Below, piece by piece: positions 14,076 to 29,868 of a stretch of DNA of 29,868 nt (its first letter is position 1; each line of letters begins with the position of its first letter). The position numbers and the translations under genes were made by a program. Under the pieces are notes generated by a model. That model saw only the letters and a list, made by a program, of their open reading frames with translations, was not told the origin of the DNA and did no database searches. The stretch is taken from the IMG/VR virus record IMGVR_UViG_3300034092_000600, positions 1 to 29,868 of that record; one strand, given 5' to 3'. The stretch is from a virus.

Positions 14076-14098
14076 CCAGTTTGACCAACAACAACCAA

Positions 14099-14116: not shown

Positions 14117-14129
14117 CGGTAAAACTACC

Positions 14130-14324
14130 TTACATGCGCCAGACGCGCAAGCCCCTTATACCTTCTACGATAACCACTTTGGTAAGAACCTTTATTCGTA
14201 GGCGGTTCGTAGTGCAAAGTAGTTCCCGTTTGGCTCGCACTGGGTCCAAGCACGGTAGGAAAAAAGACCAACCCCGCTTAAATGTCTTCCAGTTAATGTC
14301 GTAGTTAACCTTCTCCAGCTGCAT
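14130..14324 (-). CDS. possible small basic protein (doubtful)
   Basis: A 64-residue frame starts inside the last codons of the primase-helicase gene and runs through most of the convergent intergenic region. Its product is basic and ends in a beta-like stretch, KVVIVEGIRGLRVWRM. The overlapping start resembles the coupling seen elsewhere in this operon, and the terminator lies beyond its stop. There is no good ribosome site and no family is recognised, so it may be chance. Confidence 0.3.
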   Translation of the reverse strand: MQLEKVNYDINWKTFKRGWSFFLPCLDPVRAKRELLCTTNRLRIKVLTKVVIVEGIRGLRVWRM

Positions 14325-17145
14325 TTTCAGCTTCCGTAAAAGGGGGCCTAGACAAGAACTCTGGGTGCAGCATATCCAACGTCATGCAATACACAGAAGG
14401 TGTAACAATCTGCATGCCCTTGGACAGCCGCTTGTTTTCCATTTTGAGCATAATGCCCTTGGCCTTAAGTTCCTTGATCGTTTCTTTGTAGTTGATCTGG
14501 TACTTCACGCAGTCTTCTTTGAACGGCTTGATAGAGATAAACATCTTATTGGTATCAGGTTCCTGCCGGATCATAAGCTCGCCCTTGGGCTCCAACGTGG
14601 GCAGCGGTTCAAACCCAGTCCTTCCATCTAGCTCGCTTTTCACAACGACATAGTTCTGCATATGTCGGTTCAAGAACTCTGCAATAACCGCAGACACGTT
14701 GCTTATAGGCGGCGCTACGTCATCTCGCATATCTGTAAGCATGTTGGTGGCCCACAGGTAGATAGCCTTCATATCCCAGTCGATCAGACCAAGGCGCTTG
14801 GCGATCCTGCCCCCTGTAATGTTAGCGGCCAAGGCAGCAGACCAGATACGTTCGCGCTGTGTCAGCTTAAGTTCCCGGTCAATCTTGGCTTGGGTAGCCA
14901 GCAGGATGCCCTTGGCTTCCTCTAGGTTCTTCACCAACCAGTCTACGTAGATAAGACCAGCGTGGCCGTAGTTCTCCATAAGCTGGTGGTCGAACATCTG
15001 CTTGGCTATCGCCGGGTCAACCGCATCGCTGTAATCAACCTTGTACTCTATAAGGCGCATCATCTCGCCGTCTGGGTTGCGCTTACCTAACGACATCTTT
15101 TCGTAGAACGACGCATTAGAACTGCACGGCGATATGCAAGCCCACGAAGTCAGGTTGAGGCGCATTTCGTTCGTAGACTGCTTGAGCCGGTCCTTACCGC
15201 GCCCTTGGGACATGCAGTAGGCCAGTTCAGAGAAGTCTGCGGCGCTCATGTTGGTTAGTTCGTCCACGGCAAATGGTAGGTTATTCATAAGACCCAGACG
15301 CAGGATCTTGGCGTTCAAAGTATCCGCCTTGACCGCGCACAGTAGTCTGGGGTGGCCGTAGACGCTGTTACTCATGTGTAGGGCAGTAGTCTTGCCCGTA
15401 CCCGAACGGGAGTTAATCAAGTTGATGATAACACCGCTCTGCCCCAAGAACTTAAGCAGCGGAGAACCGAAGGCAGACAGGGCGGCGAAGGCGTTGGGTT
15501 CCAGACCCGGCCTACCGTACAGGTTGAAGACTTCCTTCCACTTATCTAAGCTGCCCGTAGGTACCATCCATTCGGCTAGCTTCTTGGTAACAGACGACGG
15601 TGGGCTATGGTACGTCCCGTCCGCGCTGATTTCTCTGTCTCCGATGATGAACTTGCTGTCGTTGTCAGCCCAACCAAATTGAAGTCTCATTTGTTCTGCC
15701 TTTCCTCTGTTTTGCATACTGTTAATTGACGCTATTACGTAGTCTATAACCATGGTGAACTGCTTAGACGGGCACACCACACCCCGTGCGGCCAGTACGC
15801 CGCCTAGTTCGTCTCTCTTCATTACGATCTTATTTGAGACTGTAAATTCTCTTATCCCGTCGCAGGGCGTGTGCAGTCGCATGACCACTACGTCGCCTTC
15901 TTGTGGGTCCACCATACGCTTCACGACATACAGGTCGTTGTGGTAGACAAGGATAGGCTCGGCTTCCTCGTCTTTCTTAACAAGATAAATGCCGCCCTTT
16001 ACCCCACGTGCATACGGCTTGGGATACTTGGGTATACTGTAGGTCTTACCTTGCGTACCGTCCTCGGTCTCCTCGACAACGGTGTTATCGGCGTCTGTGG
16101 CCTCTGCCAGTTCCTTACCCAGCATGATCGGGCCGGTAATCTTGCCCTTGAACTGACAGCCCTTGCAGCCACCCGCGTTATTCTTCTCAAACTCCTTGCA
16201 CCCTTGCGGGCCACCGATGTGCTGTATCTTCCGCTCAGTCTTATCTGGGGCGTAGTCGGGGTAACCCTCAGACAACGTATGTATAGCGGTGTCTTTGTCA
16301 GTGCAGAACTTGGCTACGGACAGGGCGTTGAACCAGCGCGATTCTGGCAGCGTGGCGCGGTTCTCGTAGCAGTCCCATAGCTGCTGGCAACCTTCGCCCT
16401 TGGCGCTACGGCGCATAATCTTGGTAAAACTTTTGTTAATGTTCTCCTGCGAAGCCTTAGCGAACTCACTAATCTCGCGTTCTGGTGGGGTGACCAGTGA
16501 CCGTTCTTTGTCCTTTATACCTAGGAGAGCCTTGAACTTCCCGAACTCTACGGGGGCACCTTCGCTCAACACCGTTACTTCTGCCGGTGGGTTGTCCTTG
16601 AAGTTCAACGTGCCGGGTATACGCAGCACGCGAGCCACTTCGAAGACTGCTGGGTCAACGTAGAGTTCATGGGTATTGCAAAGCTCACGTAGCCGGTCAG
16701 CCACAGGCTCCCATTGTTCCCGGGTGATCTCCTCAGTAAGCGGCCAGTATACGTGTACCCCTCGGCCCGAATTGACGAGAATAGGCTTGGGCAAACCGAC
16801 CAGCTTACAGAACCGCTTTAGTTCCTCTAGTGCTGTAGGTTGGTCGATGTACCCATCTGGTTTGCCAGTCTTCTCGTCAACTCGGGCCTTGGTCTCCCCA
16901 CAATCTATGTCCAGCCAGAAGGCTTTAAGCGCCTTGACGTTGTCCTTCTTGCGGCTACCAGCTTCAGTATACTTGGCAACACCGAAGAATACGTTACGCT
17001 CCTGCGCCATAAACTCGGCAGCTATTGCGTCTACTTCTTCCCTATCCTGCGTAAACTTCTGAACTACAGCCTTATCCTTGATCCCTATAACAGCAAACCA
17101 CCCCTCGGGGGGCTGCACGGCAGTAAGGAGATCAAATTCGGACAT
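14305..17145 (-). CDS. primase-helicase: AEP-like primase plus DUF927-type ATPase
   Basis: The protein combines an archaeo-eukaryotic-type primase with a helicase-like ATPase, so it probably unwinds and primes phage DNA. Using the ATG at 17145 (946 residues), the primase motifs are FWLDID (D79 and D81), SGRGVHVYW (about 126-134, H131) and VDPAVFEVARVLRIPGT (about 163-179). A Cys-rich stretch containing C..C (CKEFEKNNAGGCKGCQFKGK) links to the ATPase domain. This has a Walker A SGTGKTT (Lys near 585) and Walker B PFAVDE (near 623-629), as in DUF927 proteins. A GTG at 17169 would add eight residues, but a 7-bp hairpin spans it; the ATG is preferred. It is the last confident gene of its transcript, downstream of the HTH and SSB-like genes. 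Confidence 0.88.
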   Translation of the reverse strand: MSEFDLLTAVQPPEGWFAVIGIKDKAVVQKFTQDREEVDAIAAEFMAQERNVFFGVAKYTEAGSRKKDNVKALKAFWLDIDCGETKARVDEKTGKPDGYIDQPTALEELKRFCKLVGLPKPILVNSGRGVHVYWPLTEEITREQWEPVADRLRELCNTHELYVDPAVFEVARVLRIPGTLNFKDNPPAEVTVLSEGAPVEFGKFKALLGIKDKERSLVTPPEREISEFAKASQENINKSFTKIMRRSAKGEGCQQLWDCYENRATLPESRWFNALSVAKFCTDKDTAIHTLSEGYPDYAPDKTERKIQHIGGPQGCKEFEKNNAGGCKGCQFKGKITGPIMLGKELAEATDADNTVVEETEDGTQGKTYSIPKYPKPYARGVKGGIYLVKKDEEAEPILVYHNDLYVVKRMVDPQEGDVVVMRLHTPCDGIREFTVSNKIVMKRDELGGVLAARGVVCPSKQFTMVIDYVIASINSMQNRGKAEQMRLQFGWADNDSKFIIGDREISADGTYHSPPSSVTKKLAEWMVPTGSLDKWKEVFNLYGRPGLEPNAFAALSAFGSPLLKFLGQSGVIINLINSRSGTGKTTALHMSNSVYGHPRLLCAVKADTLNAKILRLGLMNNLPFAVDELTNMSAADFSELAYCMSQGRGKDRLKQSTNEMRLNLTSWACISPCSSNASFYEKMSLGKRNPDGEMMRLIEYKVDYSDAVDPAIAKQMFDHQLMENYGHAGLIYVDWLVKNLEEAKGILLATQAKIDRELKLTQRERIWSAALAANITGGRIAKRLGLIDWDMKAIYLWATNMLTDMRDDVAPPISNVSAVIAEFLNRHMQNYVVVKSELDGRTGFEPLPTLEPKGELMIRQEPDTNKMFISIKPFKEDCVKYQINYKETIKELKAKGIMLKMENKRLSKGMQIVTPSVYCMTLDMLHPEFLSRPPFTEAENAAGEG

Positions 17146-17156
17146 GGGTGCTCGTT

Positions 17157-17174
17157 CGGAAGTTTGCACTTCCG
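17157..17174 (-). other. hairpin with GCAA loop in the leader of the primase-helicase gene
   Basis: On the - strand CGGAAGU and ACUUCCG pair perfectly (7 bp) around the GNRA-type loop GCAA. It lies 11 nt before the ATG at 17145 and covers the alternative GTG at 17169. Its 5' arm contains the GGAAG that could otherwise act as a ribosome site, so it may control translation or process the RNA. Confidence 0.55.
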
Positions 17175-17200
17175 GCCACTAAGGGGTTTGTTAGGCGTTG

Positions 17201-17440
17201 TTATTTGGGGGCAGTGATATTGTTATAGTAGGCCGTAACTTGTCGGCTTACCGCAGGCTTGGGACTATGCGTCCCGCAAAACCAGTTGTAAACCGTCTGT
17301 CTACTGACGCTCAGCTTGGCGGCGACTAGGGACACAGGAATATTGTTTTTCATACAAACCCTCCCCAGTCGTACGCCAAGCATCCGTGCGTCTGCCTTCT
17401 TATTCAACCCTATCAGCCGCGCACTATAGCCATAAATCAT
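17201..17440 (-). CDS. small helix-turn-helix DNA-binding protein
   Basis: A 79-residue protein begins at the ATG at 17440, three nt after the stop of the SSB-like gene; an upstream TTG at 17461 is less likely. Residues about 23-70 contain an Xre-like HTH: LGRVCMKNNIPVSLVAAKL is the first part and SVSRQTVYNWF the recognition helix, followed by a short GTHSPKPA loop. The N-terminal MIYGYSARLIG is of a type seen in other aquatic phages. Location between the SSB-like and primase-helicase genes suggests a transcription regulator of the replication genes or an origin-binding factor. The two dyad sites at 18814 and 27932 are possible targets, but this link is inference. Confidence 0.75.
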   Translation of the reverse strand: MIYGYSARLIGLNKKADARMLGVRLGRVCMKNNIPVSLVAAKLSVSRQTVYNWFCGTHSPKPAVSRQVTAYYNNITAPK

Positions 17441-17442
17441 GG

Positions 17443-18351
17443 TTAATCGTCTTCGCCCCAAGCACTTACCGCGTCAGCAATGCTCTTCTTGGGTGTTGGT
17501 GTAGCTTCCTGCTTCTTGCTAGCACGCTTCGTGGGTTCAATCGGAGCGTCCAGTTCGGTTTCGTCTTCAAGTTCCACAACGCGTGTAGCCTTGGCCTTAG
17601 CTTCCACAGCAGGGGGCTGCTTACTTACACCATCCGCCTGCGCCACCGTTAGCATGATGTACGCCTTGGTTTCCGGGCGCTTCTGCGCTTCTCGGACCAT
17701 ATGGTACTCGGCGTCGGTAGTAAGCCGGTGGGGTGAGAACTGAAGTTCCATAGTATTAGCATTGATATTAAAGCTAATAGTGGTAACCACGTTATCCAGA
17801 AGCGCGTTGTTGGCGTCGAGATACTTCTTGTACCCTACAAACCCATGCGTGTTACCAGACCCCACACCAAACAGCGACTTAGCCGGGATGTTAAACTGGT
17901 AGACTTCGCCAGACGGGTCGTCGGCCAGCAGGACTGCAATGCGGCGCTGGAACCGGCAAGCCTTACCACCGTTATCGCCAGAACCCTTAACGTTCTGGGG
18001 GCAGGTCATACAGCTTGTACCCTGCTTGTTCTTAGCAGCGGTTTCGGGTGCGTCACCCAGATTGGACCAGCAGTCAGGTAGGGTCGCTTCCTTGTTGGGG
18101 TCGTACTTTTCCTTGTAGAAAGTACGGGAAATCCCGTTCAGCCACGCGATGATGATGACCTTGATCTCACCGCGCACGGCGTTACCAACCTGCTCACCGT
18201 TGACGATGCGCTTGAAGGTGCCGTTGGTGTTGGTCTGAATGCGCCGGTAGTTGTTGCTACCCATGGTGGCCTTAGCAAATTCGCTAAGCTCGCGCTCTAC
18301 TACCGAAACGCTAGTTTGGTCTTTGAAGATTGCTAGATTAGTCGTGGTCAT
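17443..18351 (-). CDS. putative phage single-stranded DNA-binding protein
   Basis: The 302-residue protein lacks a clear motif of a named SSB family, but its layout fits: a beta-rich core of about 230 residues, a disordered Lys/Ala/Thr-rich linker, and an acidic C-terminus ending SAWGEDD. Such tails recruit partner proteins in T7 gp2.5 and bacterial SSBs. Four cysteines occur as DCW...SCMTC...ACRF (about residues 93-135), a possible zinc site. Similar proteins in uncultured phages lie, as here, between recombination and replication genes. AGGAA lies 7 nt before the ATG. Neighbours are a coiled-coil protein upstream and an HTH protein plus primase-helicase downstream. A recombination annealing role is an alternative. 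Confidence 0.65.
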   Translation of the reverse strand: MTTTNLAIFKDQTSVSVVERELSEFAKATMGSNNYRRIQTNTNGTFKRIVNGEQVGNAVRGEIKVIIIAWLNGISRTFYKEKYDPNKEATLPDCWSNLGDAPETAAKNKQGTSCMTCPQNVKGSGDNGGKACRFQRRIAVLLADDPSGEVYQFNIPAKSLFGVGSGNTHGFVGYKKYLDANNALLDNVVTTISFNINANTMELQFSPHRLTTDAEYHMVREAQKRPETKAYIMLTVAQADGVSKQPPAVEAKAKATRVVELEDETELDAPIEPTKRASKKQEATPTPKKSIADAVSAWGEDD

Positions 18352-18360
18352 AGTAGTTCC

Positions 18361-18777
18361 TTACTTAGCCGTAGGTTTGCGGACTCTGATTGTGTACCGA
18401 CTGTCTGCCTGAAGTCCAATAGGCAGTGTGTCAGGGTTCTCTTCTAGGAACTGCTTCATGTTCCCATTGTGGATACGGCGCTCTAACAGCTGCGGGGCGT
18501 CATGGTCCTTGATGAAGGAGTACATCTGTTCCCAGTCACTGGCCCAGTAGCGGGTAGAGACAGTACGGGAGACAGTGCCCGCCGGGGTCTTGATGCTATC
18601 CAAGTTCTGTTCGTTGCAGATACCCAGCAGGTGCTGGCTGACGATGTCGTATTCTTCCTTGATCTTTTCGAGCTCCGACTTGTGGCGCTCCTCAGTCTCT
18701 TCGATCCGGTTACGGATTTTGATGTAGATATCAACCATCTCTTCGATGGTCTGGGGTTTCTCAATGGTGTCTGTCAT
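18361..18777 (-). CDS. coiled-coil protein of the replication/recombination operon
   Basis: This 138-residue protein has a long charged N-terminal helix (about residues 10-50, EETEERHKSELEKIKEEYD) of coiled-coil type. A compact domain follows: SIKTPAGTVSRTVSTRYW, a DWEQMYSFI helix, and ERRIHNGNMKQFLEE. This layout recurs in phage proteins beside SSB or exonuclease genes and resembles in outline Gam-like nuclease inhibitors and Gp157-type proteins, though no firm match can be claimed. It has a strong AAGGAG site 5 nt before the ATG. It is the first gene after the candidate promoter at 18799-18826 and 9 nt before the SSB-like gene, so a helper role in DNA-end protection or recombination is likely. 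Confidence 0.65.
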   Translation of the reverse strand: MTDTIEKPQTIEEMVDIYIKIRNRIEETEERHKSELEKIKEEYDIVSQHLLGICNEQNLDSIKTPAGTVSRTVSTRYWASDWEQMYSFIKDHDAPQLLERRIHNGNMKQFLEENPDTLPIGLQADSRYTIRVRKPTAK

Positions 18778-18798
18778 GGTTGCTCCTTGTGGCCCGAC

Positions 18799-18826
18799 AA
18801 TCTACGCCTGTATTTGACAAAGTCAA
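18799..18826 (-). promoter_or_regulatory. candidate promoter with overlapping TTGAC-AAA-GTCAA dyad
   Basis: On the - strand TTGACT (18826-18821), a 16-nt spacer and TAGATT (18804-18799) form a sigma70-like promoter placed just before the coiled-coil protein gene. The -35 hexamer lies in a perfect dyad, TTGAC-AAA-GTCAA on the + strand at 18814-18826, which also overlaps the stop of the SNF2-type gene. The same 11-nt core, TTGACTTTGTC, occurs at the other candidate promoter near 27940. Confidence 0.55.
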
Positions 18827-20205
18827 GCGGTACCGGAGAGTTCTTGGTGGTACAAGTCAATTATCTTTTCATGGTTGTTGATGTTGGCCCGGAGCATCCG
18901 GTACAGCTTGTCTTCTATCTCACTACCCTTGATGTGCACAATAGTCATTGGGTTGTGTTGGCCCGGACGGTTGATGCGGGCGTTTGCCTGCAAGTAAGTC
19001 TCAACGGAAGTCACCGGGGCATACCAGATGATGGTGTTCGCTGCCGTTAACGTCAATCCGTGGGATGCAGCCTGTGGCTGGATGATGAGCACGTAGGGGT
19101 CTGGGTTGTTCTGGAACCGCGTAACTATATCACTACGCTTGTTTACCGAGACCTTGCCGTTGATAATGTCGTTGCTGATACCGTGCTTGTCGAGCGTAGC
19201 CTTGAGCAGCTCTATAGTGTGTGTGAAGGGTACGAACACCAACACCTTGTGGCTGGACTCCTCGATCACTTCAAGAACAGCATTCAGGCGGTTGCTAACG
19301 TCGAACTCAACGACTTCGCCAGTATCCGTATAGACCGCACCCCCGCTGATCTGGAGTAGTTTGTTAATGTTAGTGGCTGCGTTAACAGCGGTAATGGACT
19401 CTCCACCCGCCTGCATAGTCATCTTCTCCTTAAGCAGGCTGTAGTACTTGACTTGCTGCGGGGTAAGCGGCGCTTCGCGCTCTACGTGGGTGACGGGCGG
19501 CAGGTCTAGGCACTGACTGCGTTCGAACCGGATAGCGGGCTGGAGTACCTGATGCACCGTATCTTGTGATCCCGGCTTGGCTACCCACTTGAACTGGGTG
19601 ACCTTGTACATAACTTGGTCGCGGAAAGCGCCGTAGTACTTGGGCGTATTGTCTGGGTTAACCAGTTTGGCTAGGCCGTAGGCATCCAGTGGAGACTGCG
19701 CTGCTGGCGTACCAGTAAGCATCCATAACCCCTTAGCTGCGGCGGCTACGTCGCGCAGCACCTTCCAGCGGGTGGTCATAGGGTTCTTGTAGGCGTTGGC
19801 TTCGTCCACCACGATCAGGTCGAAACCACCCTTGATGATCTCGTCCTTGACCACGGCAAGCCCGTCGAAGTTAATGACGACGAACTCAGAGCCAGCTGCG
19901 ATGATCTTCTTGCGCTGCTTGGCATCCCCGTGGGCTACCGAACAACTGCGGTGCATGGCGAACTTGAACAGGTCCTGCTGCCACGCCGACTTCATGATGG
20001 ACAGGGGGCAGATCACCAGCACACGGTTCACCTTGCCCTGTTTCATCAGATGGTCAGCGGCCCAGATAACGGACGCAGTCTTACCCGTACCCTGCTCGTT
20101 GAAGCAAAACGCCTTGCGGCGGCGGGTCAAGAAGTCAGCAGTTTCCTTCTGGTGGGCAAACGGTCTGAACTTACCCGGCCAGTCGTAGTCAGTTAGGATG
20201 GTCAT
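18823..20205 (-). CDS. SNF2-type superfamily 2 helicase/ATPase
   Basis: The 460-residue protein has a complete set of SF2/SNF2 motifs: an N-terminal Q-like HQKETADFL, motif I EQGTGKT (residues 37-43), Ia CPLSI (66-70), motif II as DEAN (134-137), motif III LTGTP (about 160), and C-terminal lobe motifs ASHGLTLTAAN and QANARINRPGQ. It should use ATP to translocate on double-stranded DNA. Phage members of this size are thought to help replication, fork restart or recombination. Its ATG overlaps the stop of the 56-residue gene (ATGA), and its stop lies in the dyad of the next promoter. The last letter of motif II is Asn where His is more usual, which is tolerated in this superfamily. Confidence 0.92.
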   Translation of the reverse strand: MTILTDYDWPGKFRPFAHQKETADFLTRRRKAFCFNEQGTGKTASVIWAADHLMKQGKVNRVLVICPLSIMKSAWQQDLFKFAMHRSCSVAHGDAKQRKKIIAAGSEFVVINFDGLAVVKDEIIKGGFDLIVVDEANAYKNPMTTRWKVLRDVAAAAKGLWMLTGTPAAQSPLDAYGLAKLVNPDNTPKYYGAFRDQVMYKVTQFKWVAKPGSQDTVHQVLQPAIRFERSQCLDLPPVTHVEREAPLTPQQVKYYSLLKEKMTMQAGGESITAVNAATNINKLLQISGGAVYTDTGEVVEFDVSNRLNAVLEVIEESSHKVLVFVPFTHTIELLKATLDKHGISNDIINGKVSVNKRSDIVTRFQNNPDPYVLIIQPQAASHGLTLTAANTIIWYAPVTSVETYLQANARINRPGQHNPMTIVHIKGSEIEDKLYRMLRANINNHEKIIDLYHQELSGTA

Positions 20206-20372
20206 TTGAGCGGGAACGACTTTTCGTATTCGTTGGTTAGCACGCCAATCCAGTCTTTAAGTAGGTCAGCCCGTAGAAGCGAAGACCAATTTTCCCAATC
20301 TTTAGGAAACCTAACATCGCCCTCGCCTGTTTCGAGACTTGCTACTAGTCTTGGTATTCCAACCGAGTTCAT
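20202..20372 (-). CDS. small acidic/Trp-rich protein (56 residues)
   Basis: This short gene fills the gap between the HNH and SNF2-type genes. It starts at an ATG overlapping the HNH stop (TAATG) and ends in an ATGA overlap with the helicase start. The product begins MNSVGIPRLVASLETGEGD and continues with FPKDWENWSSLLRADLLKDW, a Trp-rich helical part. The double coupling makes a real gene very likely. The function is unknown; position suggests a partner of the helicase or nuclease. Confidence 0.75.
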   Translation of the reverse strand: MNSVGIPRLVASLETGEGDVRFPKDWENWSSLLRADLLKDWIGVLTNEYEKSFPLK

Positions 20373-20662
20373 TACTTCTTCCTCTTAGGCTTATTAGTCT
20401 TCACAGTGTGGTCTGAGTTGCGGCTGAACGAACGGTTGGCGCTGGCGCTCTTGACCCGCAGGTTACTGGTCGCGTTGGTGCCGCCCTTGGACAGCGGCTT
20501 GGCGTGGTCAATGTCCTTACCGTCACCTTTGTGCACTTTGCCCTTCTTCATCATCTCACGGCGGGCGGCGTTACGGACAGCCCGTTTTTTCTTAACTTTT
20601 TCGGTGCCGTCGTACTGTTCGTATTCTTTCTTGTACGGACGGGGTTTGTTTACGTATGGCAT
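20372..20662 (-). CDS. HNH-type endonuclease
   Basis: The 96-residue protein is very basic. After a Lys/Arg-rich N-terminus, residues 45-80 show an HNH-like layout: KGDGKDIDHAKPL with D52-H53, SKGGTN, SNLRV and SANRSF. This matches the Asp-His, Asn and final Asn-Arg positions of small phage HNH nucleases; the two Cys pairs found in some members are absent. The ATG at 20662 overlaps the upstream stop as TGATG and has AGGAG 6 nt before it; a TTG one codon earlier is less likely. It sits between an exonuclease and a helicase. It may nick DNA in replication or packaging, or be a free-standing mobile nuclease; the first fits the tight coupling better. Confidence 0.8.
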   Translation of the reverse strand: MPYVNKPRPYKKEYEQYDGTEKVKKKRAVRNAARREMMKKGKVHKGDGKDIDHAKPLSKGGTNATSNLRVKSASANRSFSRNSDHTVKTNKPKRKK

Positions 20663-21330
20663 CAACGTCTCCTATTATAATGTTCACAACTAGTTACGGG
20701 GCACCAGCCGCATAACGGCCCGGTCTTGGCGTTCCAAACCCCCGACTCATGGGCACCAGCTAGGCGCTCCAGTTCATCGCTAAAGACTTCAATATAAGCA
20801 TCGCGCTTCGCGGCATCGTGGGTCTTCTTGGGAAACGCTTCGCAGACTACATACGCCAGCGCCGACTTAATACGCTTAAGCTGCGGGAAGTGCAGGAACG
20901 CAGCGCCCGCTAGCAAGTCCAACTGCATAGTGTCTGCGTACTTGGCGCTCTTGCTGGTCTTGTAGTCCACCAGCCACCCTCTACCACGGTCTACGATAAG
21001 CAGGTCGGCAATGCCGCGCCACCACACGTCCTTGTCGAAGAACCCGCAGGGCTCGTAGCCAGCGTCTGTCTTCTTGATACCCAACCTAATCTCCGTGTGC
21101 TTTTCGCCGGGGATGTTGTTAAGGGAAGCTACAGTAGGTTCAATGAACTTGAACTTGGCAGGGATCGGCGTACCAAACTTGATATAGTCTTCAGCGGCCT
21201 TATGTACTTCCTGTCCGTAGACCGTGGCATCGCTGCCCGAGTCCTTAACGTCCTTGGCTACCTTAAGGTGGTAGTACTTCTTCGGGCACTGGTCGAAGGT
21301 CTTGATGCTACTGTAGGACCACGTAATCAT
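20662..21330 (-). CDS. Cas4/RecB-like PD-(D/E)XK exonuclease with Fe-S cysteines
   Basis: With the ATG at 21330 (222 residues), the nuclease core is visible: H43 in GQEVHKAAEDY, D109 in WWRGIADL, and D122-x-K124 in LVDYKTSK, where Asp takes the place of the more common Glu. One N-terminal cysteine (C15, in DQCPKKYYH) and three C-terminal ones (C207, C210, C215 in CGWCPVTSC) give the 1+3 pattern that binds a 4Fe-4S cluster in Cas4 and AddB-type nucleases. It probably resects DNA ends for recombination-dependent replication, together with the SNF2 helicase and SSB-like protein. A TTG at 21345 would add five residues but breaks the ATGA overlap with the preceding small gene. Confidence 0.88.
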   Translation of the reverse strand: MITWSYSSIKTFDQCPKKYYHLKVAKDVKDSGSDATVYGQEVHKAAEDYIKFGTPIPAKFKFIEPTVASLNNIPGEKHTEIRLGIKKTDAGYEPCGFFDKDVWWRGIADLLIVDRGRGWLVDYKTSKSAKYADTMQLDLLAGAAFLHFPQLKRIKSALAYVVCEAFPKKTHDAAKRDAYIEVFSDELERLAGAHESGVWNAKTGPLCGWCPVTSCEHYNRRR

Positions 21331-21461
21331 GTGTCTAACAACCAATTCCCAACAATAATAATCGCGGCCCAGAAGCCGGAACCGAATAATATCAATATCA
21401 AGCAGCCACTAATACCTAGCGGTTGCCCAAGCTCGTCACGCTGTCTTGGGTTTTTGTTCAT
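21327..21461 (-). CDS. small single-helix membrane protein (44 residues)
   Basis: A 44-codon gene starts at 21461 inside the end of the 88-residue gene (26-nt overlap) and ends in an ATGA overlap with the exonuclease start. The product has a polar N-terminus (MNKNPRQRDELGQPLGIS) and then about 20 hydrophobic residues (LILILFGSGFWAAIIIVGNW), a clear membrane segment, ending LLDT. The N-terminal part is probably cytoplasmic because it is positively charged. Its place in the early operon argues for a host-takeover or membrane-anchoring role more than for a holin. No strong ribosome site is seen, so translation may be coupled. Confidence 0.7.
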   Translation of the reverse strand: MNKNPRQRDELGQPLGISGCLILILFGSGFWAAIIIVGNWLLDT

Positions 21462-21702
21462 CTTGTCTGTACCCTAAAACAGCATCCACGAGCCGGGTTC
21501 CCCATATACGGACCATAGAAGACCGGGACATCCCACGCTGTGCGCTGTACTGCATGAGTTCAATGCTGTCCTTATGGTGTGCTATATAGCGCTCTTCGTC
21601 TAGGCGGCGAGCCCAGTCCTGCATGGACTGCGTATCCTTTACGTCACGATCTCTGCTCGCCTTTTTGTATCTCCGCTCTCTCAGGTCTTTCAAGTAGTTC
21701 AT
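21436..21702 (-). CDS. hypothetical basic helical protein
   Basis: The 88-residue product is highly charged and predicted helical, starting MNYLKDLRERRYKKASRDRD and with a second part around SSMVRIWGTRLVDAVLGY. It is linked by an ATGA overlap to the preceding gene and by a longer overlap to the 44-residue membrane protein. The family is not recognised. Its charge would suit binding to nucleic acid or an acidic partner, which is only a guess. Confidence 0.6.
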   Translation of the reverse strand: MNYLKDLRERRYKKASRDRDVKDTQSMQDWARRLDEERYIAHHKDSIELMQYSAQRGMSRSSMVRIWGTRLVDAVLGYRQDEQKPKTA

Positions 21703-21887
21703 GGGCGTATTGCTCTTACTTTGCTTGGTGTTTCAATTCGTTCCCCGGCGGGGTGGTAAGGCCAACCGTGAGATGCTTTAGGTGAGGGATCAGGATACCG
21801 CAGAGCCCATACGTTTTCCACATATTGTGTATCCGAACCCGCCATACTCCGCAGGTTGCTTAGTACGTCCCTAGCTGTTTCTAACAT
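21699..21887 (-). CDS. hypothetical small protein
   Basis: The 62-residue product starts MLETARDVLSNLRSMAG and contains a Pro/Trp/His-rich middle (RYPDPSPKASHGWPYHPAGE). The ATG at 21887 is chosen because AGGAGG lies 6 nt before it; the GTG one codon earlier is too close to that site. It overlaps the DUF6378-like gene by 17 nt and the next gene by an ATGA. No family or function was recognised. Confidence 0.6.
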   Translation of the reverse strand: MLETARDVLSNLRSMAGSDTQYVENVWALRYPDPSPKASHGWPYHPAGERIETPSKVRAIRP

Positions 21888-22152
21888 CACTATCCTCCTG
21901 ACATTCGCGTATCACCGCAGCGTAGCCCGCGATATCAACTGCTGAATCCTCGTGACCCGGTGTTTGAACAAGTCTAGCCAGTTTAACGGCTACCATACAG
22001 CACGCAACCTGTACCGGGGTGATAGGCATCCCGAGACAAACGGCCCAAAGGGCCGCAATCCTGTCCATGTTCTGGCTCATGGGGCCATACGTCAGCCCCC
22101 GTTCCTTGATGACTTGGCTAGCTTTGAGCAGCATGTCCGATCCGATTGTCAT
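21871..22152 (-). CDS. DUF6378-like phage protein
   Basis: The 93-residue protein has the pattern LLKASQVIKERGLTYG, then a helix around NMDRIAALWAVCLG, AVKLARLVQT, and the end motif GHEDSAVDIAGYAAVI. This fits the phage family DUF6378 as I recall it. The conserved Lys, Arg, His and Asp residues in an all-helical setting recall MazG-like nucleotide pyrophosphohydrolases in outline, but its own activity is not known. It is coupled to GcrA upstream by an ATGA overlap, so the two are probably made in linked amounts. Confidence 0.7.
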   Translation of the reverse strand: MTIGSDMLLKASQVIKERGLTYGPMSQNMDRIAALWAVCLGMPITPVQVACCMVAVKLARLVQTPGHEDSAVDIAGYAAVIRECQEDSDVRNS

Positions 22153-22637
22153 TTCACCTTCCCCCGGTACTTTAGCGAACCAGCCTCGTTGTACGCCATA
22201 CGGCAGTGCTCTTCGCAGTACGGGTACTTCTCTGTTTTCTTCTTGTCACAGTACATAAACCTATCCGTGTAGGGATCACCCAAAGGCCATCGGCAGTCGT
22301 TAGCCTTAAGCGCCATAGTGGCGGTGCACACATCACCCATAGGGACAGTCTCGTGCACAATAGGTCTAGGCGGCACTGGCTTAGACCTCGTCGTGGTTTT
22401 GCGTGAACCCTTTAGCTTCGGTTCCGCAGCAGGTCGAACAGCCTTAACCTTTTGTATCTTCTGCTTAACCGGTGCCCGCGCTGGTTCCCCCCGGGGCGTT
22501 AGCTTCAGCCTGTGGGCCTTACCAATAACTGCGTTCCTAGTCGCTCCAAGCTTGTCGCCAATACGCTGCGCGGTTCGCCCTTCGGCCCAATACCGTTCAA
22601 GCAGGGCGATCTTCGCCGGGGTCCAGAACGGGGTCAT
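22149..22637 (-). CDS. gcrA: GcrA-family cell-cycle regulator homologue
   Basis: The 162-residue protein carries both ends of the GcrA family: an N-terminal DNA-binding domain (about residues 5-46: WTPAKIALLERYWAEGRTA, then GATRNAVIGKAHRL), a basic Pro/Lys-rich linker, and a C-terminal domain (about 105-157: CRWPLGDP, FMYCDKK, YPYCEEHCRMAY). In alphaproteobacteria GcrA binds the sigma70 holoenzyme and activates promoters carrying CcrM-methylated GANTC sites. A full-length phage copy suggests control of host or phage transcription in step with the host cell cycle. It lies between the DUF6378-like and glycosyltransferase genes with ATGA overlaps on both sides. Target promoters cannot be named from this window. 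Confidence 0.88.
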   Translation of the reverse strand: MTPFWTPAKIALLERYWAEGRTAQRIGDKLGATRNAVIGKAHRLKLTPRGEPARAPVKQKIQKVKAVRPAAEPKLKGSRKTTTRSKPVPPRPIVHETVPMGDVCTATMALKANDCRWPLGDPYTDRFMYCDKKKTEKYPYCEEHCRMAYNEAGSLKYRGKVK

Positions 22638-23416
22638 TTCAGGTTGCCTCCCGACTTCACGATGTCCCCGCCGTACACGTACGTACCCACGTGCTGCAAC
22701 CGGAGGAACGGGTTGGCGTAAATCTTGCCGCCGTGCTTCCTGAACAGTTCGCAGAAGTGGTAGTCCTCAGACAGCAGAGCGCCGCCAGCGTCGATACTGG
22801 TAGCGAAGTACTCATGGATCAGCGGCTTGGCGTACTCACCGTTCTCGTCCTTGAAGGATGCTACGCGGTACGTAGGCACGTGGGGCTTCAGGTGTTCGAA
22901 TACCCCCCGCTTGATTAGCATGAAGCCAGTACCGGCGTGGCGCACTTCGATCATGCCTTCAGGGTCAGTCTCTGCGTGGCCTGTGCCGATCATGTTGAAC
23001 ACGAAAGACCCAGCGTAGTCGTGCAAGCCTTCTTTGCCATCCTTCGCGGCCTTTTCTATCCGCGCCCAGTCCACTTCCTTCTTGGGGTAGATACCGCAGG
23101 CAACGTCCCTGTCAGCGGCAAGTAGAGTAAGTACAGCCTCGGCGGTAAAACCAACGTCTGCGTCGATAAACATAAGGTAGTCGTGGCCGCGCTCCAGAAA
23201 CGCATTGGTCAGGTCGTTACGCGCCCGGGTAATCAGGCTTTCGTTCATCAGCTGCGCCCAGAACACCTGCACACCCATGTCACGCAGCTTGGACACGGCG
23301 GCGAGTAGGCCGCTTACGTAGTGCCCAGTACACATACCGCCGTACATCGGCGTGGCGATCATAATGCTAGGCTTCTTCTCGGGGTCTTTGACGGCTACTT
23401 TGATTTCGTCGGTCAT
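22634..23416 (-). CDS. GT-A fold glycosyltransferase
   Basis: The 260-residue protein has the order of a GT-A (family 2-like) glycosyltransferase: PSIMIATPMYGG near the N-terminus, then FIDADVGF with the metal-binding DxD at D85 and D87, a GTGFMLIKRGVF acceptor-side motif (about 165-175), and LSEDYHFCELFRKHG (about 218-232) carrying the likely catalytic acid. No signal peptide or membrane helix is seen, so it acts in the cytoplasm. Possible targets are phage DNA bases, a phage protein or a host surface precursor. No base hydroxymethylase is visible here, so DNA glucosylation is not specially supported. It is coupled to its neighbours by ATGA and TAATG overlaps. Confidence 0.82.
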   Translation of the reverse strand: MTDEIKVAVKDPEKKPSIMIATPMYGGMCTGHYVSGLLAAVSKLRDMGVQVFWAQLMNESLITRARNDLTNAFLERGHDYLMFIDADVGFTAEAVLTLLAADRDVACGIYPKKEVDWARIEKAAKDGKEGLHDYAGSFVFNMIGTGHAETDPEGMIEVRHAGTGFMLIKRGVFEHLKPHVPTYRVASFKDENGEYAKPLIHEYFATSIDAGGALLSEDYHFCELFRKHGGKIYANPFLRLQHVGTYVYGGDIVKSGGNLK

Positions 23417-23850
23417 TATATTTTTTCCACGTTTTCAAATTTATCTACGTTTATTAAAACTACAGTCTCTACGTCTTTCGGATCACCGCGATCATACCTG
23501 CCGCCCGTAGACACCGTGTGTTCAACAGGCAGGGTCACGCACCCTAGAAAATCCGACCACTGAACTAGCAGGATGGGAGTAAAGCCTTTACCGGCCCACT
23601 CACCCAGCGAAGTATATTTATCCAGACTGAGCATGTAGGTGCTGTACGCTTTACGTTTGTTATTGCGCGTCTTTACGCGGACAATCGCCCTACCCCGCTT
23701 ATTACGCGCCAACATGAAGTCCGCATGAGCGTCGAGAGGAAGCCTAACTGCTTCGCACTTAATATGTTTGCACAGCTTGTCCACCGCTACCTGCGCGTTG
23801 AGTATGTCTTGTCCGGTTTGGTAGAAAGGACGAGGGCTCGTTGTGGTCAC
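23416..23850 (-). CDS. PD-(D/E)XK nuclease-like protein, possibly altered active site
   Basis: The 144-residue protein starts with GTG (GTGA overlap with the methyltransferase stop). The core AHADFMLARNKRGRAIVRVK (residues 41-60) followed by TRNN has the spacing of small phage PD-(D/E)XK nucleases, with D44 and K60. The residue two before the lysine is Arg58 where Glu or Gln is expected. A Tyr-rich helix, YSTYMLSLDKY, follows. It may therefore be a DNA-binding protein that has lost cleavage, or it may use another acidic residue. It is joined to the glycosyltransferase by TAATG. The fold assignment is by eye. Confidence 0.55.
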   Translation of the reverse strand: MTTTSPRPFYQTGQDILNAQVAVDKLCKHIKCEAVRLPLDAHADFMLARNKRGRAIVRVKTRNNKRKAYSTYMLSLDKYTSLGEWAGKGFTPILLVQWSDFLGCVTLPVEHTVSTGGRYDRGDPKDVETVVLINVDKFENVEKI

Positions 23851-24437
23851 TTTTCTTTCCTTACTATGTACTGGTAACCCATGTGCACGGGCTTCAGTTG
23901 CTCCGCGAATATGTTGGTAAAGGCATCAACAGCCAGCTTGGGTCTGTGCAGCACGTCGCGGTTGTCGCCCCACAGGTAGTCATCGAATACCATGACGCCG
24001 TTGTCCTTGAGCATCGGCCAAGCTACGCAAGCATCGGTAAGCACGTCAGGCGCGGTATGCGAAGCATCTACATAGATGAAGTCAAACTGCGGCCCACCGG
24101 CCAGCTTGGTAATCGCTTCGTAGGAAGTCATCTTGAACTTGAGCACCGCCCGTTCAGGGTACTGCTCACCTAACAGGCGCAGGTTGTGGTCGTAGTTATC
24201 TTCGGCGTCTGACATCGCCAGTCCCATTATAAGGTGCTCCTCTGCACCTCCCCACGTATCAACAGAGATAAGTGTGCCGTCGTCTTCGAGCATGTTCTCC
24301 ACGATCCATGCAGTGCTACGCCCTTCGAACGCGCCCAGTTCCAATAAGCGTTTACGTCCCGGTAGAGAAGGGACCAGTTGTTCCCATATAGCGGGTGACC
24401 AGTGGAACCAGTCTTGGGTGAACTTGAAGTCGGTCAT
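23847..24437 (-). CDS. class I SAM-dependent methyltransferase
   Basis: The 196-residue protein has a Rossmann methyltransferase core: motif I LLELGAFEGRSTAW (31-44), an acidic residue at the end of strand 2 (ISVD, D60), and FDFIYVDASHTAPDV with LKDNGVMVFDDY further on. This places it near the Methyltransf_24 and cephalosporin-hydroxylase-like group, whose members act on small molecules or sugars. No DPPY/NPPY motif of DNA adenine methylases or PC motif of cytosine-5 enzymes is seen, so it is unlikely to be a CcrM-like enzyme. Its position two genes from the glycosyltransferase suggests they may modify the same glycan; this is inference. Confidence 0.85.
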   Translation of the reverse strand: MTDFKFTQDWFHWSPAIWEQLVPSLPGRKRLLELGAFEGRSTAWIVENMLEDDGTLISVDTWGGAEEHLIMGLAMSDAEDNYDHNLRLLGEQYPERAVLKFKMTSYEAITKLAGGPQFDFIYVDASHTAPDVLTDACVAWPMLKDNGVMVFDDYLWGDNRDVLHRPKLAVDAFTNIFAEQLKPVHMGYQYIVRKEK

Positions 24438-24700
24438 GGTTTAGGGGCTTTCTGGTTCGTCATTCCTGTAAACAAATCCGTCTGCTCTGGATTAAGTAGG
24501 TGCTTCATTATCTGTTTGTGTATCCCATCGAGTGTTATATTACGGCGGGTGGTCTTTAGCGCGGTAAGTTCCTCCTCGTTCGCATGGGCTATACAATTCT
24601 TCTCCTCCATGTCCCATTCACCCCTGATAAACTCCTCAGGGTTGCTCTGCATACGGGCGATAAGTAGTTCGATAGCGGGGTGTAGTTCTTCAGTGTTCAT
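24434..24700 (-). CDS. hypothetical protein with N-terminal HPAIELLIARMQSNPEEF motif
   Basis: The 88-residue product has an N-terminal helix (HPAIELLIARMQSNPEEF, residues 7-24) of a kind common in phage proteins, then a charged helical region. The C-terminus is Pro/Lys-rich. It starts with an ATG 7 nt after an AGGA site in the 12-nt gap that follows the 209-residue gene, and ends in an ATGA overlap with the methyltransferase. Function unknown. Confidence 0.65.
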   Translation of the reverse strand: MNTEELHPAIELLIARMQSNPEEFIRGEWDMEEKNCIAHANEEELTALKTTRRNITLDGIHKQIMKHLLNPEQTDLFTGMTNQKAPKP

Positions 24701-24712
24701 GTGTTGGTTCCT

Positions 24713-25342
24713 TTAATAATGATACGCATCGCTGTCCCCGTATGTCTTTGCATCGGTTTCATTTTCCACCGCAAAGAACTGGGTCGAGCATTTAAAATCA
24801 GGCACCAGTAACGTCTTGGGTGATAGCGATGTGTCTATGATCCGCAGCCTATTGTTCGGGTAGGCGCAGTATTGCCCATTCTCCAGTTCAACGATGTTAT
24901 TGCTTTTGTGTTCGCTGGGCGTCTCGCTGGTCGAGTAGTCAATGGTATCCGGCGCGGGGTGGTAGTTGTCCAGTGTGCAGACGTAGGTGCCGCGCATAGA
25001 CCCGCCAGACTTCAGCCTAGCCTCGTATGACATCGAGGCGGTAAACTGTTTGATTACAGACACTACCCCATAATCCATGCAGTTCCAGAATTGCAGGTCG
25101 GTCAGCGGCAAATCTGGGTCAGGCGTTTTCGGTTCTGCCACGAAGGCAGACAGCGGCAGCTTGTCGAACATAGCTCCGTAATGCGGCAGGTACGTCTCAA
25201 AATACAAAGCCCGTCCGGGTATGCTCTTGGCGCAGACCCAAACCCCTTTGACAAACTCGCCATGCCCGTCCTCTAGGTCGCGCAGGTATTCTTTGCGGAC
25301 CCAAACGTGCTGGGCGGGTAGGTTGGTTATTAGGTAGCTCAT
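24713..25342 (-). CDS. conserved phage protein of unknown function (209 residues)
   Basis: The N-terminus (NLPAQHVWVRKEYLRDLEDG, residues 7-26, then HGEFVKGVWV) and the following SIPGRALYFETYLPHYG and DLQFWNCMDYGVV are patterns I recognise from proteins of uncultured aquatic phages with no assigned role. The protein is soluble, aromatic-rich and looks beta-rich in its C-terminal half (GTYVCTLDNYHPAP, ENGQYCAYPNNRLRI). No enzyme motif was found. It is coupled to the 83-residue gene by ATGA and to nothing downstream, where a 12-nt gap carries the ribosome site of the next gene. Confidence 0.7.
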   Translation of the reverse strand: MSYLITNLPAQHVWVRKEYLRDLEDGHGEFVKGVWVCAKSIPGRALYFETYLPHYGAMFDKLPLSAFVAEPKTPDPDLPLTDLQFWNCMDYGVVSVIKQFTASMSYEARLKSGGSMRGTYVCTLDNYHPAPDTIDYSTSETPSEHKSNNIVELENGQYCAYPNNRLRIIDTSLSPKTLLVPDFKCSTQFFAVENETDAKTYGDSDAYHY

Positions 25343-25590
25343 TCATCCTCCAGCGCGGCGTCGATCATGGTCTTCCACAGTTCGTCGTATGATGTGCATA
25401 TGCCGTCCCGCAGGTCTGCTGCTGTTAACATCTCCCCACTAGGCTCCCGCATGGCGGCAATGGCGGCGCGGGCTATAGGTGTGTAGGTCTTCCAACGGTT
25501 TTCATCAGTCGCGCCTTCGGGCGGCACCAATGCCCAACCACGCCTATCCGCATCAATAGCCTTCGCTACCCGTTCGATCATGTCGGTCAT
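25339..25590 (-). CDS. hypothetical small helical protein
   Basis: The 83-residue protein begins MTDMIERVAKAIDADRRGW and contains YTPIARAAIAAMREPS, a pattern frequent in phage and prophage small proteins (a helix, a Trp loop, then an ARAAIAAM helix). The start at 25590 is chosen because it forms an ATGA overlap with the stop of the membrane protein gene; a longer version in the same frame would run across that whole gene. Its function is unknown. Confidence 0.72.
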   Translation of the reverse strand: MTDMIERVAKAIDADRRGWALVPPEGATDENRWKTYTPIARAAIAAMREPSGEMLTAADLRDGICTSYDELWKTMIDAALEDE

Positions 25591-25766
25591 ACCAAAGCCC
25601 CGAGCAAAAATATAAGCACCGAGAGAACAATAACCCCCGCCGCCATAGCCCCCACGAAACCTGCGAGCAGAATGCCCAACTGGACCACCGCCCAACCCAC
25701 AAGAAACACGGCGGCCACTCCCCCCCACATAGTAGCTAGAAACTTCAGTCCGCTTTTAATGTTCAT
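25587..25766 (-). CDS. small two-helix membrane protein (59 residues), holin-like size
   Basis: This short gene starts inside the DNA polymerase stop (TGATG) and ends inside the next start (ATGA), so both ends are coupled. The product has a short basic N-terminus (MNIKSGLKF) and then about 45 hydrophobic residues that fit two membrane helices, GVAAVFLVGWAVVQLGILLA and FVGAMAAGVIVLSVLIFLLG, with almost no loop. Size and topology resemble small holins, but it sits in the replication operon, not with lysis genes. A role as a membrane anchor for replication or in superinfection exclusion is equally possible. Confidence 0.75.
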   Translation of the reverse strand: MNIKSGLKFLATMWGGVAAVFLVGWAVVQLGILLAGFVGAMAAGVIVLSVLIFLLGALV

Positions 25767-27583
25767 CAGCAGTCTCCGTAGCTCTTACCCGCACCTGCTT
25801 CGCAGTTAAGCGGTAACTCCAGCGCCCAGTCGGGGCGCACGCGCATGAACATCTGGATATTCTCCAGTGCAACATCAACATCACTTTCGGGAACTACGCA
25901 CCCGATAGCATCGTGCACCGTCATGACCACCTTGTACTTCTTGGCTATCAGCAGCATCTGTTCGCCAATGATGATGCGGGCTAGAGCTTGGCAGACGTTT
26001 TCGATAACCTTGCCGCCGTAGATACGGTTAGGCACAGTCGTCTTGCCCTTCTTGGTATCGTAGACGTACTCGGACTTACCGTCGTCGTTGTTCTGCTTAC
26101 GCAGGTTTGGGTAACGCAGGTACAGCCCGTTAGGCAGACGTATACCTTTCTCACCTTCAACTACCAGTACACCGTACTGCCCTAATGGGGTCGTCTTGTC
26201 ACCTAGAACCGCATCCAACGCGACACCAGCTTCGCGCCACAGCTTAGTAATAGCCGGGTAAGACTTACGGTACACGTCGATAATAATACGCGCGTCGTCT
26301 TCGCTGATCTCAACGCCAAAGGTCTTCAGCTGCTTCTTGAACTTGGCAGCGCCCATACCGTAGCCGCACCCAAGGATCGTGGTCTTGCCGACGAACCGTT
26401 CGTCCTTTGTAACGTCCTCTTCCTTCTTGTCGTAAATTGCAGCCGCCATGATCTTGTACACGTCCATGCCCTTATCAAAGGCTTCGACCAAGTCATTCTG
26501 CCCTGCTAGCCACGCCAAAGTACGTGCTTCGATCTGGCTGCTGTCGCTGTCGATCATAACGTGACCCTTAGGGGCTAGCATTGCGAACTTAAGCGCTGAC
26601 GCACGCGGCAGGTTCTGCATGTTCACCTTGTCGTCGCCTCCCCACCGTCCGGTGTGCGCTGCGTAGTAACGCAGGGGGATGGGCAGCTTGCCCCGCTTGG
26701 CTATGCCTATAAACCGCTCGGTCCTTGTCTCCTCCAGCGTAGACTTAATACCCAGACGCGCCGCCACCAGCGTTTGCACCCGTACATCTTCGTGCTCCAG
26801 CAGTGCCTTGAAGTCCTCGTCGGTCTTACCAAAGGCCCAAGTCTCCTTGCCCGTGGTTGGGCTGATCTTCACGGGCGGCTCAACGTTCATATTCTGCAAC
26901 GCCAAAGCAAACTTTGGGTTAGACATAAGGACTTCTTGGTTAGCGGCGACGGAAAGAAGTAACTGCCCCTTACGTTGCTGAACGCTGAATAGATGGCCCT
27001 CCAGCTTCGCCGCATCTAGTTCTAGGGTTGGCTCCGTAAACATCCGTATGGTCAGGTCAATAAGCTTGAACTCGGACACAGGGAAGTCAGGGCCAAGGGT
27101 CTGGAACAGCTTGTAGGTAAGCTCGGTGTCGTTCTTGCAGTACGCACCGTACCTACGCAGGGATGCTTCGTCGAAGTCCAGCCGCCCTTTGCCTAGCGCG
27201 TTGATAACCTCGTCGCCCTTCTCGCCAAGCTTGTACTGCTTGACTAGGTTAGCAAGGCTGACACTACCCGCACCTAGCGCACGTGCCATGGACAGCGTAT
27301 CCGCAATGCGCTTGGGCCTGATGTCGTACACCCAGTTAAGTATAGCCATGTCGAACACAGCGTTGTGGGCTACCGCTATCGCATTGTCCCAGTCGAACCG
27401 GTTAAGGAAGTTCTTGGTATCGGCCCATGACCCGCTGAACCAAACGGCAGGTGCGTCGTCCACCTTTACGGATACCCCTATCGTCTCGAACTCAGGCGAA
27501 CGGACGTACTCCTCCGTCGTTATCTTGGATAACGAGAAGCTCTGGGAGTAGTAGGTTTCGAAGTCTAGGGTGATAATATTCAT
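25766..27583 (-). CDS. polA: family A DNA polymerase with 3'-5' exonuclease
   Basis: This 605-residue replicative polymerase has both domains of the T7 type. Exonuclease motifs are LDFET (D7, E9), AHNAVFD (D78) and YCKND (D152). Polymerase motif A is DSSQIEAR (D347, E352), motif B is R396-x3-K400-x3-L404-x3-Y408-G, and motif C is VHDAI (D558). All catalytic residues are present, so it should be active with proofreading. There is no 5'-3' exonuclease domain. Leu404 matches E. coli Phe762, a site that varies among phages (Phe, Tyr or Leu) and affects nucleotide selection. Its start overlaps the VRR-NUC stop (TAATG) and its stop the membrane protein start (TGATG). It is shorter than T7 polymerase (704 residues). 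Confidence 0.95.
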   Translation of the reverse strand: MNIITLDFETYYSQSFSLSKITTEEYVRSPEFETIGVSVKVDDAPAVWFSGSWADTKNFLNRFDWDNAIAVAHNAVFDMAILNWVYDIRPKRIADTLSMARALGAGSVSLANLVKQYKLGEKGDEVINALGKGRLDFDEASLRRYGAYCKNDTELTYKLFQTLGPDFPVSEFKLIDLTIRMFTEPTLELDAAKLEGHLFSVQQRKGQLLLSVAANQEVLMSNPKFALALQNMNVEPPVKISPTTGKETWAFGKTDEDFKALLEHEDVRVQTLVAARLGIKSTLEETRTERFIGIAKRGKLPIPLRYYAAHTGRWGGDDKVNMQNLPRASALKFAMLAPKGHVMIDSDSSQIEARTLAWLAGQNDLVEAFDKGMDVYKIMAAAIYDKKEEDVTKDERFVGKTTILGCGYGMGAAKFKKQLKTFGVEISEDDARIIIDVYRKSYPAITKLWREAGVALDAVLGDKTTPLGQYGVLVVEGEKGIRLPNGLYLRYPNLRKQNNDDGKSEYVYDTKKGKTTVPNRIYGGKVIENVCQALARIIIGEQMLLIAKKYKVVMTVHDAIGCVVPESDVDVALENIQMFMRVRPDWALELPLNCEAGAGKSYGDC

Positions 27584-27891
27584 TATGACCGTTCCATCTT
27601 CCGCAGCACGTTCAGCAGCACCGCCACCTCGCCCACGTTCTTCTCGTTGACTACCAGCTGAACACCGCCCGCAGCCTTGATGGCCGCAAGCTCGCGCTCC
27701 TGTAGCGCCGTGGTCTTACCCGCGCCCGCCTTGCACTCAATGGCTAGGAACTTACCGTGGTAACAGCAGATGATATCAGGGACGCCGCTGCGCCCCATGC
27801 CGTAGGTAGCAGGGAAGAAGTAATAGACGCCGTGCGACTTAAGTATCTCGACTACCTTATTTTTTACCTTCTTCTCGGGTGTAGCGGCCAT
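27583..27891 (-). CDS. VRR-NUC domain nuclease
   Basis: The protein (102 residues from the ATG at 27891) is a minimal VRR-NUC nuclease: E6-K-K-V at the start, SGVPDII with D39, and LAIECKAG with E52-x-K54, then a helix with TTALQEREL and the end strand GVQLVV. Stand-alone phage VRR-NUC proteins act on branched or structured DNA and are thought to resolve replication or recombination intermediates before packaging. The ATG at 27921 would add ten residues, but it lies in the likely -10 box, while GAGAG stands before 27891. It is the first gene after a terminator and promoter, and is coupled to the polymerase gene. Confidence 0.88.
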   Translation of the reverse strand: MAATPEKKVKNKVVEILKSHGVYYFFPATYGMGRSGVPDIICCYHGKFLAIECKAGAGKTTALQERELAAIKAAGGVQLVVNEKNVGEVAVLLNVLRKMERS

Positions 27892-27916
27892 GTGCTCTCT
27901 CGTTTGTTGGTTTACC

Positions 27917-27944
27917 ACCATACACTACGTCTAGACAAAGTCAA
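27917..27944 (-). promoter_or_regulatory. candidate promoter with near-perfect TTGAC-AAA-GTCAA dyad
   Basis: On the - strand TTGACT (27944-27939), a 16-nt spacer and TATGGT (27922-27917) form a sigma70-like promoter directly behind an intrinsic terminator and before the VRR-NUC gene. The + strand reads TAGAC-AAA-GTCAA at 27932-27944, 12 of 13 positions equal to the dyad at 18814-18826. It would drive the long polymerase-to-helicase operon. Confidence 0.58.
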
Positions 27945-27948
27945 AGAC

Positions 27949-27980
27949 AAAAAAAAGGGGTCGCCCGCTAAGGCAACCCC
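27949..27980 (-). terminator. strong intrinsic terminator
   Basis: On the - strand GGGGUUGCC (27980-27972) pairs with GGCGACCCC (27965-27957) in a 9-bp stem with one G-U pair and the loop UUAGCG, followed directly by eight U (27956-27949). It lies 25 nt after the stop of the unrecognised 284-residue gene and separates that transcript from the polymerase operon. Confidence 0.9.
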
Positions 27981-28005
27981 AGAGATTTAGTGACAAGTCA
28001 CAAAA

Positions 28006-28860: not shown

Positions 28861-28878
28861 GGTTGCTCCTACCAGCGA
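28825..28878 (-). repeat. perfect 27-bp tandem duplication over a start codon
   Basis: Positions 28825-28851 and 28852-28878 are identical. Each copy holds, on the - strand, the end of the preceding gene (CGCTGGTAG), an AGGAGC ribosome site (28838-28843 and 28865-28870), the ATG and two further codons (ACC AAA). Because 27 is divisible by three, the two starts are in the same frame. Confidence 0.97.
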
Positions 28879-29723: not shown

Positions 29724-29744
29724 GGTGTTGGTCCTTTTGTTTTG

Positions 29745-29868
29745 TTACTTCGCGGGTTTCCCGGCAGCTTTTGCTACCCGGTAGTGATGGTCTGTGACGA
29801 GCTTGATCTCTGTTATTGATTCAGCCTCCTCTTCATAAACGTGGTATGTGTAGCTGCTTGTCTTGTCG
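29745..29868 (-). CDS. 3' end of a gene (partial), unknown product
   Basis: An open frame enters from the right edge and ends with TAA at 29747-29745, giving the last 40 residues of a protein (DKTSSYTYHVYEEEAES ... DHHYRVAKAAGKPAK). Only 21 nt separate it from the next start, which contains that gene's AAGGA site, so it is likely part of the same transcript. The fragment is too short to identify. Confidence 0.6.
   Translation of the reverse strand, partial: DKTSSYTYHVYEEEAESITEIKLVTDHHYRVAKAAGKPAK

Follow-up and report, generated by a model that had tools for sequence, protein, structure and literature searches.

A full-length GcrA homologue in the replication operon of a GANTC-depleted phage, with a possible role at host promoters

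The window analyzed here, a stretch of 29,868 nucleotides of viral DNA (IMG/VR record IMGVR_UViG_3300034092_000600), encodes a full-length protein of the GcrA family on its minus strand (22149-22637; ATG start, 162 amino acids). GcrA is an alphaproteobacterial protein that turns on methylated cell-cycle promoters. The window protein is a genuine phage member of this family, new in its phage lineage, and we give a probability of about one half to the reading that it is an early-made sigma70 cofactor acting mostly on host promoters. Phage-encoded GcrA as such has already been published (phiCbK-like phages in 2012, Atu_ph08 in 2019); what is new is that the early module of the phage has almost no target site and that single-domain relatives exist, and both shift the focus to host promoters or sigma70 as such.

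The predicted protein matches the Pfam profile PF07750 (GcrA) with an E-value of 8.6e-31 and 107.9 bits (curated cut-off, 26.9 bits), and because the match extends over residues 5-152 and profile positions 3-148 of 155, the protein is full length. Sequence searches of the PDB retrieved Caulobacter GcrA (7ye1, E 7.7e-25), the sigma-interacting domain (5yix, E 1.9e-10), and the DNA-binding domain (5yiu, E 2.2e-7); of the cellular GcrAs found, even the best shares only 42% identity with the window protein. For the AlphaFold2 model, the window protein was aligned with 15 viral relatives (16 sequences in all). In this model, three N-terminal helices form a domain of high confidence (pLDDT about 90), which a disordered linker joins to a C-terminal domain with pLDDT of about 80. 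Residues 1-49 form the DNA-binding domain (22491-22637, minus strand; helices 7-18, 23-30, and 34-43), including the recognition helix T33-R43 (TRNAVIGKAHR; 22509-22541, minus strand); residues 50-108 form the linker, variable and modeled with low confidence (22314-22490, minus strand); residues 109-152 form the sigma-interacting domain with C115, C130, C141, and H144 (22182-22313, minus strand). In Caulobacter GcrA, the corresponding limits are 1-45 for DNA binding and 108-173 for sigma binding (PMC7403470). With Foldseek, the N-terminal domain was superposed on Caulobacter 5yiv_A, solved with methylated DNA (TM(target) 0.91, rmsd 1.7, 47 columns), and the C-terminal domain on Caulobacter 5yix_B, solved with sigma70 domain 2 (TM(target) 0.85, rmsd 0.8, 45 columns).

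Conservation was judged over 52 alignment columns in which 72 cellular GcrAs show at least 85% conservation. The window protein is identical at 35 of these, including the core of the recognition helix and the C-C-C-H pattern (W5, R34, N35, A36-K40, H42, and R43; C115, W117, P118, G120-P122, F127, C130, Y140, C141, and H144), and the CxWPxGDP...C...PYCxxH pattern of the GcrA sigma-interacting domain is present; the other 17 columns differ, among them a one-residue deletion before the recognition helix. The first-pass annotation of this DNA had described a full-length homologue with both domains, which the profile, the PDB matches, the fold, and the retained residues bear out. It had also proposed structure prediction against Caulobacter GcrA, and had named a fold unlike GcrA, or loss of the residues contacting sigma70 or methylated GANTC, as grounds for rejection: the fold matches in both domains, and the recognition-helix and Cys/His residues are kept, contact residues being judged by conservation only.

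The gene overlaps each of its neighbors by 4 nt, as in translational coupling: at its stop with a DUF6378 gene (21871-22152, minus strand), and at its start with an upstream gene with weak Anp1/glycosyltransferase similarity (22634-23416, minus strand). It is flanked on one side by DNA polymerase A (25766-27583, minus strand), which belongs to the same operon, and on the other by exonuclease, SNF2 helicase, and DUF927 genes, the exonuclease downstream of gcrA being of the PD-(D/E)XK/RecB type (20662-21345, minus strand). The overlaps and these neighbors agree with the earlier placement of gcrA inside a replication operon.

The window is a fragment, and no near-identical cultured phage was found by megablast with it. 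A longer viral record, IMGVR_UViG_3300044638_001368 (62,907 bp; hereafter G001), holds the window in reverse complement and matches positions 12152-29868 of it at 99.99%. As the end of G001 repeats its first ~70 bases, it is probably a complete circular map. Genes of G001 were called with a simple script, and those classed as early from their content lie with the replication genes on one strand (26119-48598), the structural genes on the opposite strand. The complete genome has nine copies (0.9 expected) of a 14-bp dyad, AGTGACNNGTCACT, within or close to its early control regions (L065 5970-14914), and the dyad is found in the window at 27989-28002; the relatives L238 and L239 carry a different dyad, CTGATACGTATCAG, at similar places. 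Judged from these sequences, the dyads look like an early operator that varies between relatives. The early region also contains adjacent genes for an AAA ATPase and a VWA-metallopeptidase-like (DUF2201) protein (L065 10507-12905), a pair resembling MoxR/VWA systems.

PF01555, the family searched for a CcrM-like methylase, has no match in the window, nor in its complete relative of 62,907 bp, and for this family the first-pass statement that no such methylase is visible holds for both. A methyltransferase encoded at 23847-24437 is Methyltransf_24/O-methyltransferase-like by Pfam and also matches a PHROG named 'DNA methyltransferase'. Small phage methylases for GANTC that are unrelated to this family also exist, as in phiLM21. 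Methylases of CcrM specificity have been found in replication modules of other phages (PMC5537653); here, a CcrM-type methylase would have to be supplied by the host.

One of the closest known systems is Caulobacter crescentus GcrA (7ye1, 5yix, and 5yiv): it agrees with the window protein in both domains, in the recognition helix, and in the Cys/His pattern, and the model superposes on both of its domain structures. The window protein differs from it in being phage-encoded, one residue shorter before the recognition helix, with another linker, and 42-47% identical in the structurally aligned domains. GcrA of the phiCbK-like phages (gp222; Gill et al. 2012, PMC3556154) is likewise full length and phage-encoded, and the surrounding stretch is GANTC-depleted (0.33); however, identity is ~33%, and these are large siphophages of at least 200 kb, whereas the window phage (62.9 kb) belongs to another lineage. 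GcrA of Agrobacterium phage Atu_ph08 (gp5; PMC6630229, where it was described) also scores above the Pfam cut-off in a GANTC-depleted phage (0.46), but is distant in sequence, and tblastn with the window protein as query did not retrieve it. GcrA-like proteins are further listed in a brucellaphage paper (PMC11836647). The GcrA protein of Brevundimonas phage Bajun (30556-31188) matches the DNA-binding domain a second time within its frame.

GANTC is scarce in the window (33 sites versus 84.3, SD 8.7, in dinucleotide shuffles), and a 7.9-kb stretch around gcrA lacks it entirely (21949-29817); the bordering site, GATTC (29818-29822, plus strand), is coding and lies inside the next upstream early gene. 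For G001, expectations were derived from synonymous-codon shuffles of the genes. Overall, the genes contain 65 GANTC versus 123 expected; the early-left module holding gcrA (26119-40754) contains 2 versus 21.9, the early-right module 6 versus 12.8, and the structural blocks 32 versus 48 and 25 versus 38.5. Under uniform placement, a two-site stretch as long as the early module has a probability of ~5e-5, for a stretch that was picked with the counts already known. Across all genes of the window and G001, CCNGG and TCNGA fall short as well, more weakly by ratio than GANTC; in the early module, the ratio for CCNGG is 0.46. Another restriction or modification pressure is perhaps the cause, and the depletion of GANTC itself may stem from a restriction enzyme that cuts at this site.

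These counts bear on the suggestion that the phage protein activates the phage's own genes, the few remaining GANTC sites being methylation-dependent promoters that tie the phage programme to host CcrM. Only one of the 68 GANTC sites in G001 is clearly intergenic, a GAGTC at 25859 within a 533-bp divergent control region; two other candidates were discarded, as the terminase frame reads through position 24961 and position 40955 lies inside the DUF6378 gene. The location of the GAGTC favors such activation, as do the single GANTC in the control region of the near relative L238 and the 57 sites kept by the structural genes of about 87 expected (some two thirds), among which some phage targets possibly remain. 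Yet the G001 and L238 sites stand in different contexts, relative L239 has no site at the matching place, the segment with the strong early sigma70-type promoter (TTGACA-17-TATACT) has no GANTC, and depletion is genome-wide. The count of GANTC in phage promoters proposed in the first-pass annotation thus yields genome-wide depletion and near absence from the early module, and for the phage's own GANTC promoters, its idea of a redirected polymerase is not supported, given this depletion and the unconserved intergenic site. With GANTC depleted and a single clearly intergenic site, the protein is unlikely to act directly on many phage promoters; host promoters are the better fit, and we regard activation of the phage's own genes as quite improbable. 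That gcrA is a passenger without function in infection appears most improbable. Although part of the wider polymerase family of phages lacks the gene, in near relatives it is intact, of equal length, and 77-84% identical, with dN/dS of 0.23-0.69 (mostly 0.25-0.5), indicating purifying selection, and it is translationally coupled in the early operon. Nor was recent capture from a host seen: the window lineage lies on a long branch among phage sequences, at the low cellular identity given above, with weak deep support.

A further alternative is that the phage protein activates nothing and competes: bound to sigma70 region 2 or to methylated host sites, it would block or divert host GcrA and so aid takeover. 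Single halves are what would be expected of competitors, and both occur. Rhizobium phage RHph_TM3_14A (L070), whose DNA polymerase (36%) and exonuclease (32%) are related to those of the window phage, encodes a 71-amino-acid protein (36568-36783; annotated as hypothetical) that, unlike the window GcrA, has no DNA-binding domain and consists of the sigma-interacting domain only; it scores 23.3 bits against PF07750, below the cut-off, its gene adjoins the exonuclease homologue, and the 50 kb read contain no GANTC. Conversely, short proteins with only the DNA-binding half are encoded in the viral contigs L043, L044, and L045 and in others; L043-L045 have 0-1 GANTC in their genes and 0-2 sites per 16-20 kb. 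The window protein, however, is built like an activator, with both halves retained and joined by a linker of comparable length, and we consider competition rather unlikely for it. The sigma-binding half standing alone in RHph_TM3_14A, a phage with no GANTC in the 50 kb read, suggests that sigma binding may be a separate function. An extension of this, which we hold to be unlikely, is that phages took GcrA apart (whole protein, sigma70-binding half, DNA-binding half), that the lone sigma half would be a methylation-independent modulator of host sigma70, and that the full-length copy would mainly use the same function. A single-sequence scan of viral contigs revealed no sigma-domain-only proteins. 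Two other arrangements were seen: in Agrobacterium phage 7-7-1, the sigma-interacting domain is fused to a diverged helix-turn-helix-like N-terminus, and in L037 (10600-12078) a domain of this type lies at the C-terminus of a 493-amino-acid frame with DUF7227/GP88 domains.

GANTC depletion was compared among relatives chosen by DNA polymerase and among isolates, the latter measured over stretches of 10-50 kb and not over whole genomes. Within the polymerase family, rows with full-length gcrA are depleted without exception and most other rows are not; six rows without full-length gcrA are also depleted, besides one contig too short to tell. This pattern is a hint at the host. All six isolates with full-length gcrA are depleted (observed/expected: phiCbK, 0.33; Ssp-JY42, 0.49; Atu_ph08, 0.46; Bajun, 0.66; DMCA, 0.31; Manatee Spring podovirus, 0.47). 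Depletion was, however, also found in phages free of gcrA: Cd1 (0 versus 30 expected in 20 kb), RDJL Phi 1 (0 versus 44 in 20 kb), Lo5R7ANS (5 versus 39; 0.13), Atu_ph02 (13 versus 45; 0.29), SIO1 (0.43), PBC5 (0.44), and 16-3 (0.64). Since the first four of these are depleted without PF07750, gcrA is not the cause of depletion. After correction for the tree, the association between gcrA and depletion comprises only 3-4 independent changes and is not significant, and L070, entered as gcrA-positive, has the sigma-interacting domain only; the Fisher p-value for these rows is for that reason given no weight. Nor is depletion a sure host marker, because CcrColossus (0.94), HTVC027P (0.93), DSS3phi2 (1.22), and phiM12 (0.81), all free of gcrA, are not or barely depleted; Pseudomonas phage KPP25 is not depleted either (0.93). 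Many but not all alphaproteobacterial phages are thus depleted, independently of gcrA, and as some are not, depletion points only indirectly to a CcrM host. It was earlier reported for about half of the pelagiphages (PMC9516812). Binding sites of the GcrA type, surveyed in phages of alphaproteobacteria, showed no positional asymmetry (PMC9437464). Ssp-JY42 (L318), with full-length GcrA and 68% GC, is recorded from Synechococcus; its true host may be an alphaproteobacterium.

For the phage of the window, we infer an alphaproteobacterial host with CcrM, together with sigma binding, methyl-GANTC binding, early timing, and an effect on the host. As an early sigma70 cofactor, the protein would be made together with the replication genes; of its two domains, the C-terminal one is predicted to contact region 2 of host sigma70 and the N-terminal one to bind GANTC methylated by host CcrM. 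Its targets would mostly be host promoters rather than phage promoters, and probably so because the early module of the phage is almost devoid of GANTC. Active host GcrA promoters, which in Caulobacter include those of gyrase, topoisomerase, and polymerase genes (PMC3556154), would then keep the infected cell competent for replication. Such a host-directed role, with the host kept DNA-replicating, is the part of the first-pass proposal that is left; it is a plausible hypothesis, and for phiCbK it had already been put forward by Gill et al. 2012 (PMC3556154), who suggested that phage GcrA raises host replication functions. The single-domain relatives are natural separation-of-function proteins for direct tests, and the idea from 2012 that a phage GcrA alters the replicative state of the host is narrowed by the GANTC maps, which point to host promoters or to sigma70.
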